A DNA stretch of 64,000 bases, from NCBI GenBank assembly GCA_016793805.1, contig JAEUIZ010000040.1, positions 62,001 through 126,000 on the forward strand, read 5' to 3'. The notes below the pieces were generated by a model, which ran no database searches, was not told where the DNA came from, and saw only the letters and a program-made list of their open reading frames with translations. Position numbers and translations under genes: made by a program. This document shows positions 27,358-30,159 of the stretch, piece by piece; within the stretch, counting starts at the first letter, position 1; each line of letters begins with the position of its first letter. The DNA is from Phycisphaerae bacterium (GTDB lineage: Bacteria > Planctomycetota > Phycisphaerae > Phycisphaerales > UBA1924).

Positions 27358-27454
27358 TTTGGAGGTCTCCACGGCCCAGGTGTCGGCCTGACCACCGTCC
27401 CGGCCCAAACCTAGGTTGACGACTTTTCCGTCCGTGTCAAGCCCCACCCGCGGA

Positions 27455-27484
27455 TTGACTGGACACCCGGGAGGAGAGTACGTT
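27455..27484 (+). promoter_or_regulatory. dnaA: Candidate dnaA promoter
   Basis: TTGACT (27455-27460), an 18-base spacer and TACGTT (27479-27484) lie about 80 bp before the dnaA start. The -35 is good, the -10 is weak. A 10-bp palindrome AACCTAGGTT is at 27408-27417. No DnaA boxes were seen in the 208-bp gap. Confidence 0.3.
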
Positions 27485-27565
27485 TGCGTTCGGGCGGCCC
27501 GGGCGGGCCGTCCGTCGGTGCGTCTCCTTCCCGACTGGCACGGTGGGCGATCGCGGAGCGATTCG

Positions 27566-28909
27566 GTGGCGGACCCTGAGGCACGCATCTGGGCTGAGGT
27601 GCAGTCCTACCTGCGCTCGCACTACCCCGGCCTTCGCCGGCAGTGGTTCGAGGAGTTGGAACTGCTCGGGATCGACGCGGGGATCGCGCGCGTCCGCGCC
27701 CAGACCTCGGTCCATCGAGATTACCTGCATCGGCAGTGCCTGGACGCCTTTGGCGAAGCAATCCGCGCGGTGACGGGTCGGCTGCTCACGGTGCGGTTCC
27801 TCGGGCCCGAGGACGACCCCGAGGCGCCGTACGACCACGGGCTGTCGGCGTTCCGCGGCCTGCCCATGCCGGAGGCGATCGTCCTCAATCCCGACAACTC
27901 GTTCGAGCACTTTATCGTCGGGCCCTCGAACCGGATGGCGCACGCGGCGGCGATGGCGGTCGCGGATCAGCCGGGACGGTCGTACAACCCGCTCTTTATC
28001 CACGGGGGCGTGGGCCTCGGCAAGACGCACCTGCTCCAGGCGATCTGCCTGCGGCTGGGCGATCGGCACCCGGGGGCCTCGATCCACTACACCTCGTGCG
28101 ACGGGTTCATCACGCAGTACTTCGAGTCGGTCCAGGCGGGCCAGATGGCGGCGTTCCGCGACAAGTTCCGCGGGGTGGACGTGCTCGTCATCGACGACAT
28201 CCACTTCCTGGCCAAGCGCGGGCGATCGCAGGAGGAGTTCTTCCACACGTACAACAGCGTGATGCAGTCGGGGCGGCAGATCATCGTCTCGTCCGACGCG
28301 CCGCCGGAGGTCATCCCGCACCTCGAGGAGCGCCTGATCAGCCGGTTCCGGCAGGGGATGGTCGCGGGCATCGACCCCCCGGACCTCGAGACGCGCGTGG
28401 CGATCCTCAAGGGCAAGGCGCGAATGCGCGGGATCCCGCTCCCGGACGACGCCGCGTTCCATGTCGCCGCGTGCATCGACTCGAACATCCGCGAACTCGA
28501 GGGCGCGATCACGAGCCTGCAACTGGCCGCGGGGGTGGACGGGGTCGCGGTGGACCTCGCGCTGGCGCGCCGGGTGCTCGGCGAGACGCCCGCCGCTCGC
28601 GCGGAGAGCCCCACCATCCACACCGTGATCGCCGCGGTGACGGAGTTCTACGGCGTTCGGCTCACCGATCTGCAGAGCAAGCGCCGGCACCGGTCGGTGA
28701 CGATGCCGCGGCAGGTGTGCATGTACCTCGCCCGCACGCACACGCGGCACTCGCTCGAAGAGATCGGGGGGCACTTCGGCGGGCGCGACCACACGACCGT
28801 GATGCACGCGATACGGGCCGTCGATTCTCGGCGGAAAAGCGACCCGACCTTCGATCAGCAGGTCGTCTCGCTCGACGAGCGGCTGCGGCACCCGATTCGC
28901 CCGGGCTGA
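27566..28909 (+). CDS. dnaA: Chromosomal replication initiator DnaA
   Basis: DnaA binds DnaA boxes and melts oriC. The 447-residue protein has an N-terminal domain I (IWAEVQSYLRSHYPG), an AAA+ core with Walker A GGVGLGKTHLLQA near residue 147 and Walker B VLVIDDIHFLAKR near 206, and the C-terminal DNA-binding helices including GGHFGGRDHTTVMHAI. GTG 27566 is chosen because GGAG lies seven bases upstream and the homologous N-terminus begins there. No dnaN, recF or gyrB follows, so this is not the classical dnaA-dnaN operon, and no oriC-like DnaA-box cluster was visible nearby. Confidence 0.93.
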   Translation: MADPEARIWAEVQSYLRSHYPGLRRQWFEELELLGIDAGIARVRAQTSVHRDYLHRQCLDAFGEAIRAVTGRLLTVRFLGPEDDPEAPYDHGLSAFRGLPMPEAIVLNPDNSFEHFIVGPSNRMAHAAAMAVADQPGRSYNPLFIHGGVGLGKTHLLQAICLRLGDRHPGASIHYTSCDGFITQYFESVQAGQMAAFRDKFRGVDVLVIDDIHFLAKRGRSQEEFFHTYNSVMQSGRQIIVSSDAPPEVIPHLEERLISRFRQGMVAGIDPPDLETRVAILKGKARMRGIPLPDDAAFHVAACIDSNIRELEGAITSLQLAAGVDGVAVDLALARRVLGETPAARAESPTIHTVIAAVTEFYGVRLTDLQSKRRHRSVTMPRQVCMYLARTHTRHSLEEIGGHFGGRDHTTVMHAIRAVDSRRKSDPTFDQQVVSLDERLRHPIRPG

Positions 28910-28933: not shown

Positions 28934-29563
28934 TCAGTCGTCATCCGGGCGGAGAGGCCGCGACACGCGATAGGACCCGGTGAACCAGCCGTGCAAATCC
29001 GCGAGCCGCGCTCGCTCGTCGGCGAATGGAAACGTGGGGCAGTCGGGCGGGACGGCTCGGGACGTGATCGGACAGACGGCCCACGTCGGGCCGCCGAGGC
29101 GCGCCAGCGCCGGCCGAGCCAGCCAGGTGTTCGGCACGTCGAGATGGACTGTTCTGGAGGTCTCGCCCGCGTGCTCCATGCGCACCCGAGCCGTGCTCGA
29201 GTGGAGTGAGTCCGTGGCGAGGCCCAGTCGTGACGCCCACTCGACCAGGATGATCCGAGGAGCGTCGGACTCGAGACCGAGGACGCCCGCGTCCTCGGTG
29301 CCGTGCATTCGGTAGGCGTCGATGTGGGCGACGGTTGGCCGACCCGGCGCGCGGTACTCGTGGGCGAGCACGAAAGTTGGGCTGGAGACGGCGGAGGCGT
29401 CGTGCCCGAGGGCCGCGACGATCGAGCGGATCAGCGTCGTCTTGCCCGCGCCGAGTTCGCCGTCGATGAGCACGGCATCGCCGGGCTTCAGCACGCGGGC
29501 GAGGTCGCCCGCGAGGCGGTGCGTCTCATCCTCGGTCCGGGAATGGCGCACGATCGTCGTCAT
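28934..29563 (-). CDS. tsaE: TsaE tRNA t6A ATPase fused to a degenerate YacG-like zinc ribbon
   Basis: TsaE is the ATPase that supports the TsaBD complex in making t6A37 of ANN-decoding tRNAs. Residues 1-150 show Walker A GELGAGKTTLIR (36-47), SSPTFVLAHEY, HIDAYRM and LVEWASRLG. The usual length is about 150; this protein has 209 residues. The extra C-terminal part, 160-209, resembles YacG (DUF329), the DNA gyrase inhibitor. The spacing Cys164-x2-Thr167-x13-Ala181-x3-Ala185 matches its zinc ribbon with three of four cysteines replaced, and PFADERARLADLHGWF matches YacG's PFCSxRCxLxDLxxW. It overlaps the GNAT gene by 4 bp (ATGA). Confidence 0.85.
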   Translation of the reverse strand: MTTIVRHSRTEDETHRLAGDLARVLKPGDAVLIDGELGAGKTTLIRSIVAALGHDASAVSSPTFVLAHEYRAPGRPTVAHIDAYRMHGTEDAGVLGLESDAPRIILVEWASRLGLATDSLHSSTARVRMEHAGETSRTVHLDVPNTWLARPALARLGGPTWAVCPITSRAVPPDCPTFPFADERARLADLHGWFTGSYRVSRPLRPDDD

Positions 29564-30159
29564 GAATCGGTCCCGGACAGTTCGGCCCGGACACTCTGGG
29601 GGCCGCTGGTGTCAGGACTGGCACCGTGGGCAAGGCGCTCGAGGTTCGAGTCCGAAAGGCGGTAGGCGAGCGCGCCGGTCTTTCTCACGGCGCCGAGCGA
29701 CTCATAGAACGCGATGGCGCGCGGGTTGTCCTCGCGGACGGTCCACTCGACGCCCACGCAACCCCGTTCGATCGCTTCGGCAGCGAGCCAGGCCATGAAC
29801 CGGCCGCCCAACCCTCTCCCGCGAGCGGCGGCGTCGACAAAGAGGTCTTCGAGGTAGAGCACGGGCCGCGCGGTGAACGTGGGCACGAGGATGTAGAACC
29901 ACGCGTAGCCGACGATGGCGTCGTGGCGGACGGGCGGGCCGCCGACGGGGTCGCGCGCGAGTGAGTCGTCAAGCAAGATGACGGCCTCGGCACGGGCGGG
30001 CGTGCCGAAGAGGGCCGAGGCGATGGCAGCCTCGGTGCAGACAGCAAGTTCTGGGCGGCCCTCGTGGGTCGCGAGACCGCGGATCATGCGGACGATGTGC
30101 GGCACGTCGGCAGGACGGGCGGCACGGATCCAGCCGGGCATGTCGGCAGCGCGGGCCAT
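29560..30159 (-). CDS. GNAT family N-acetyltransferase
   Basis: A 199-residue acetyltransferase. The acetyl-CoA-binding motif A is VDAAARGRGLGGRFMAWLA, preceded by PVLYLEDLFV, and motif B is WTVREDNPRAIAFYESLGA. The LYLEDLFV pattern is typical of the spermidine/spermine N1-acetyltransferase (SSAT)-like branch, so a diamine, polyamine or amino acid could be the substrate. It is not RimI-like despite standing beside tsaE. It is translationally coupled to tsaE by an ATGA overlap. A C-terminal tail of about 35 residues has no clear family match. Confidence 0.85.
   Translation of the reverse strand: MARAADMPGWIRAARPADVPHIVRMIRGLATHEGRPELAVCTEAAIASALFGTPARAEAVILLDDSLARDPVGGPPVRHDAIVGYAWFYILVPTFTARPVLYLEDLFVDAAARGRGLGGRFMAWLAAEAIERGCVGVEWTVREDNPRAIAFYESLGAVRKTGALAYRLSDSNLERLAHGASPDTSGPQSVRAELSGTDS

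Follow-up and report, generated by a model that had tools for sequence, protein, structure and literature searches.

The stretch of DNA analysed here (the window) comprises 64,000 nucleotides of a Phycisphaerae bacterium of the order Phycisphaerales and carries on its reverse strand, at positions 28934–29563, an open reading frame of 209 amino acids (P0001) in which tsaE is fused to yacG. Its start codon overlaps the stop codon of a GNAT acetyltransferase gene located directly upstream on the same strand (29560–30159), the two sharing four bases (ATGA), and this start is supported by an alignment with 48 relatives. On the forward strand, a dnaA-like gene (27416–28909; PF00308, 196 bits; PF08299, 96 bits; weak match to the DnaA N-terminal domain) converges with tsaE-yacG, the gene ends lying about 25 bases apart. 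Neither the DnaA nor the GNAT gene has been found near tsaE-yacG in the relatives examined. In four relatives (L065, L078, L107 and L126) the gene adjoining tsaE-yacG has an AIR-synthase (AIRS) N-terminal domain and is thiL-like. In other bacteria YacG has been linked to genes for coenzyme A; no coaE was seen among the neighbours of tsaE-yacG scanned in the relatives, and tsaE can now be added as a genomic partner of yacG.

The N-terminal part of the fusion, residues 9–138 (29150–29539, reverse strand), is a TsaE ATPase domain, matched along its whole length by Pfam PF02367 (106 bits) and by NCBIfam TIGR00150 above the cut-off of that model. In the alignment with the 48 relatives, the P-loop residues G38, G40, K41 and T42 are invariant, as are S61-P62-T63, H80-x-D82-x-Y84-R85 and E108-W109. 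When compared to TsaE (YjeE), the ATPase involved in t6A synthesis, the fusion therefore has a complete domain with all of its motifs, and differs in the additional YacG domain at its C-terminus. Since TsaD and a TsaB-like protein are also present, t6A synthesis is expected to work, and the TsaE domain would continue to make t6A with TsaD and TsaB.

A linker comprising residues 139–163 (29075–29149, reverse strand), the least conserved part of the fusion, is followed by the YacG domain at residues 164–208 (28940–29074, reverse strand), which is recognised by PF03884, by a profile of 50 zinc-less tails and by AlphaFold2 with Foldseek/VIA. An earlier note on this DNA had placed the tail at residues 155–209, which correspond to positions 28937–29101, and this placement holds. 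The same is true of its reading that three of the four cysteines have been replaced: on the reverse strand, the first is kept as C164 (29072–29074), while T167 (29063–29065), A181 (29021–29023) and A185 (29009–29011) occupy the positions of the second, third and fourth, leaving the tail without the canonical four-cysteine zinc site. A further cysteine, C175, lies outside the ligand positions. W193 (28985–28987, reverse strand) is the equivalent of the tryptophan that docks on GyrB, and the C-terminus, which ends at residue 209, is short and acidic (DDD).

Assignment of the tail to the YacG family

Residues 164–208 match Pfam YacG (PF03884) with an E-value of 5e-5 and 23.4 bits, the curated cut-off being 25.5 bits, and NCBIfam PRK01343 matches the tail with 22.7 bits. 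The earlier note had proposed a fusion of TsaE with YacG, and PF02367 and PF03884 do match within the one open reading frame of 209 residues; the profile search with DUF329/PF03884 returned YacG, and when the isolated tail was compared to Pfam and NCBIfam no other family matched, let alone better. Equally zinc-less tails in many relatives score 26–35 bits against PF03884, above the cut-off. A search of the PDB with the window tail as a single sequence gave nothing useful, and only the profile built from 50 zinc-less tails succeeded, ranking two E. coli YacG chains (1LV3 and 4TMA) first with an E-value of 2e-4, followed by a next best match at 0.011.

The predicted structure agrees with these searches. 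An AlphaFold2 model of the tail has a pLDDT of 93–97 over the ribbon and the helix, and the model of the full-length fusion is likewise confident (mean pLDDT 92, pTM 0.81). The tail model matches best the four YacG chains that 4TMA shows in complex with gyrase (TM 0.67–0.80), with a Z of 6.5 and an rmsd of 1.7 Å over 45 residues, which is the YacG fold; AlphaFold2 was probably trained on YacG structures, and the match thus constitutes consistency and no independent proof. Because the zinc-less tails of the relatives, the profile of 50 tails and the predicted fold all point to YacG, family membership is settled, and the tail is a genuine YacG domain, classified as a zinc-less derivative of this family that is devoid of the canonical zinc finger. 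The relatives exclude a chance match: sister lineages carry a four-cysteine YacG at this very position, and 64 further distinct tails lack zinc ligands.

Published descriptions present YacG as a protein that docks on gyrase with its zinc finger. With this family (PF03884; 1LV3, 4TMA) the tail shares sequence, predicted fold, the PF-x-x-x-R-x-R...DLxxW...R signature, the acidic C-terminus and the docking tryptophan; it differs in the replacement of three of four zinc ligands and in being fused behind TsaE instead of occurring as a free protein. No second, intact YacG was detected elsewhere in the genome of the window, where the tail is the sole credible YacG match, and none of the genomes of relatives examined has a second convincing YacG, which indicates a single-copy gene. 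In the literature searched, to which most subscription journals did not belong, no description of a TsaE-YacG fusion or of a zinc-less YacG was found; the zinc-less YacG fused to TsaE is a newly described form of the known YacG family.

Distribution of the fusion and loss of the zinc ligands

Sixty relatives were searched with both the whole protein and the tail profile. Together with that of the window this amounts to 61 genomes, in 55 of which the tail adjoins TsaE: as a fused zinc-less domain in 24, all from the window's own family, as a fused domain with all four cysteines in 20, and as a separate four-cysteine yacG open reading frame directly behind tsaE in 11. The intact-cysteine fusions sought in related planctomycetes have thus been found. 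A scan of named genomes yielded an additional 53 loci, the majority of which carry the label Phycisphaerales, Phycisphaeraceae or Phycisphaerae, and all but four are zinc-less fusions, a proportion that gives no estimate of frequency, as the scan targeted the zinc-less motif. The set of 101 distinct tails consists of 65 zinc-less ones, all fused, and 36 with four cysteines, of which 22 are fused and 14 separate. In one genome of the same family (G329, locus L125), the TsaE open reading frame ends without a YacG-like tail and no YacG match is obtained at an E-value of 1e-3, possibly reflecting loss of YacG altogether.

Across the phylum, YacG is mostly encoded by a small free-standing gene. The adjacency looks specific to the order Phycisphaerales, because wherever both genes could be placed in further families of the class and phylum, tsaE and yacG were widely separated or belonged to different contigs. 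The four-cysteine fusions and tsaE-yacG pairs of the sister Phycisphaerales have the same domain order and gene position as the window locus, and differ in retaining all four cysteines and in having YacG sometimes as a separate gene. It is likely that yacG came to lie directly behind tsaE within this order and was then fused to its 3' end; YacG comes last in every fusion, an arrangement that leaves its own C-terminus free. One clade lost zinc ligands two to four, probably afterwards. A GyrB tree of 30 genomes, which is independent of TsaE, places the 18 zinc-less genomes in one group (support 100/97), and a single loss after fusion is for this reason the simplest history suggested by the sequences.

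At the former zinc site, the first cysteine is present in all 65 zinc-less tails, the second is replaced by threonine (59 tails) or serine (6), and alanine is found at the third position in 48 and at the fourth in 55. In 64 of the 65, cysteines two to four have all been replaced, and a three-cysteine form is absent among the 101 distinct tails. The remaining zinc-less tail, observed at L044 (and L090), is fused and keeps the first and fourth cysteines (CPIS...PFADEKCRMADL), and is a possible intermediate. The PF, R, DL, W and R residues and the acidic end are common to the zinc-less and four-cysteine tails, with PF, R, D and L nearly as fixed as the docking tryptophan. Two positions are held more strictly in the zinc-less form than in the four-cysteine form, namely the residue before PF, which is W, Y or F in 65 of 65, and a valine after the knuckle, present in 64 of 65. 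These changes may have substituted hydrophobic contacts for the zinc site. With the missing ligands suggesting that no zinc is bound, the ribbon probably folds without the metal, in whose place the first cysteine, the threonine at the second position, the fixed aromatic residue and the valine may serve as the core. The four-cysteine, unfused and two-cysteine forms of the sister lineages provide a series in which the requirement for zinc in gyrase docking can be tested, and the same series allows a test of the physiological meaning of the fusion.

Selection on the tail and its putative gyrase docking

The tail is better conserved than the enzyme to which it is joined, with a mean pairwise identity of 56% as compared to 49% for TsaE and 35% for the linker. 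In most close zinc-less pairs its dN/dS is approximately 0.01–0.28, in most cases below that of TsaE in the same pair, values that derive from about 42 codons with small counts and with synonymous sites near saturation in some pairs. A decaying, functionless relic of YacG would agree with the disappearance of three of four ligands and with a window score below the Pfam cut-off; it is extremely unlikely, given a dN/dS that stays far under 1 and is usually lower than the TsaE value, as well as invariant residues across 65 distinct tails, and this reading has been ruled out by the dN/dS values and the conservation. As the tail is preserved more strictly than TsaE, it very probably remains functional. 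In this clade, the only YacG present lacks a zinc site, is under strong selection and is joined to an unrelated core ATPase.

The known interaction of YacG with gyrase offers a candidate for this role. The zinc finger of YacG has been reported to bind GyrB by inserting a tryptophan, while its C-terminal region touches both gyrase subunits, GyrB as well as GyrA, and prevents DNA from binding (PMC10886550). Residue 40 of YacG docks on a GyrB pocket to which F513 contributes (PMC5507300); the YacG residue is printed as F40 in that publication, and position 40 of the YacG sequence in the PDB entries is tryptophan. The equivalent tryptophan is present in all 65 zinc-less and all 36 four-cysteine tails. 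On the gyrase side, gyrB was found in 30 of 30 genomes tested, and the phenylalanine equivalent to F513 is kept in each of the 30 proteins, with no clear difference around this residue between the GyrBs of the zinc-less and four-cysteine groups. F513 is widely conserved in GyrB regardless of YacG, and its retention is therefore weak evidence for docking. Purifying selection together with the retained docking tryptophan favours continued docking on gyrase, and a YacG domain that docks on gyrase without zinc, and that the fusion of neighbouring genes has attached to TsaE, is on balance the probable explanation of the locus. The tail would most likely dock on GyrB through W193 in the DLxxW helix, with the short acidic C-terminus pointing towards the DNA gate. 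Nonetheless, the same conservation would be expected if this face bound another partner, and the acidic C-terminus is shorter than that of E. coli YacG. Were docking to take place, every molecule of the t6A ATPase in the clade would carry a gyrase-docking domain.

The earlier note had envisaged either a link of t6A with the control of gyrase or a ribbon recruited for protein binding, both of which are hypotheses. The main rival to gyrase docking is that the YacG fold has been kept while gyrase binding was lost, the zinc-free tail now serving TsaE, for example by binding TsaD or TsaB or by stabilising the ATPase. The exclusive occurrence of zinc-less tails in fusions (65 of 65, none free), set against a four-cysteine YacG that occurs both ways, is in line with such a role, as is a conservation at least as strong as that of the enzyme core; the newly fixed threonine at the second cysteine position, W, Y or F before PF and valine after the knuckle point in addition to re-optimisation after zinc loss. 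The signatures outside the cysteines, including the docking tryptophan and the acidic C-terminal stretch, are however common to the four-cysteine YacG, and the lineages with a separate yacG indicate that TsaE needs no tail in the same chain, which makes this a possible, albeit rather unlikely, account. It may also be envisaged that the assembly or ATP state of TsaBDE determines how much YacG is free to dock and how much gyrase is held, coupling the supply of t6A, and with it tRNA modification, to DNA supercoiling. One TsaE and one YacG per genome, permanently joined, and the retention of the docking residues in YacG are compatible with this idea, which we consider improbable: it is unsupported, and adjacency followed by fusion suffices to account for the arrangement.

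A known response to zinc limitation involves zinc-free versions of ribosomal proteins that otherwise bind the metal (PMC5912738), and the zinc-free (C-) forms of L36 and L31 resemble the zinc-less YacG in being ribbons without ligands that keep the signature of their family. Such ribosomal proteins are often second copies for times of scarce zinc, whereas the zinc-less YacG is the only copy. The clade might have replaced its zinc ribbons throughout, YacG being one example, and some of its genomes do have a zinc-free L36. Among 29 genomes in which L36 was read, 17 have a zinc-less YacG, and 11 of these possess a four-ligand L36 as opposed to 6 with a zinc-free one; a zinc-free L36 also occurs in a genome with a four-cysteine YacG (G051), and no second, zinc-binding YacG has been kept. 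Contrary to what a joint zinc-sparing programme would produce, the zinc-less YacG does not track with the zinc-free L36, and such a programme is accordingly very unlikely. In the absence of an association with L36, the only ribbon compared, genome-wide zinc saving is unsupported. L36 was not found in the genome of the window (G000), which is approximately 83% complete. At seven loci from Phycisphaerales (L136–L138, L141, L142, L153 and L160), the zinc-free L36 has a single ligand cysteine (DCQIV), and in this respect it resembles the zinc-less YacG with its one cysteine.
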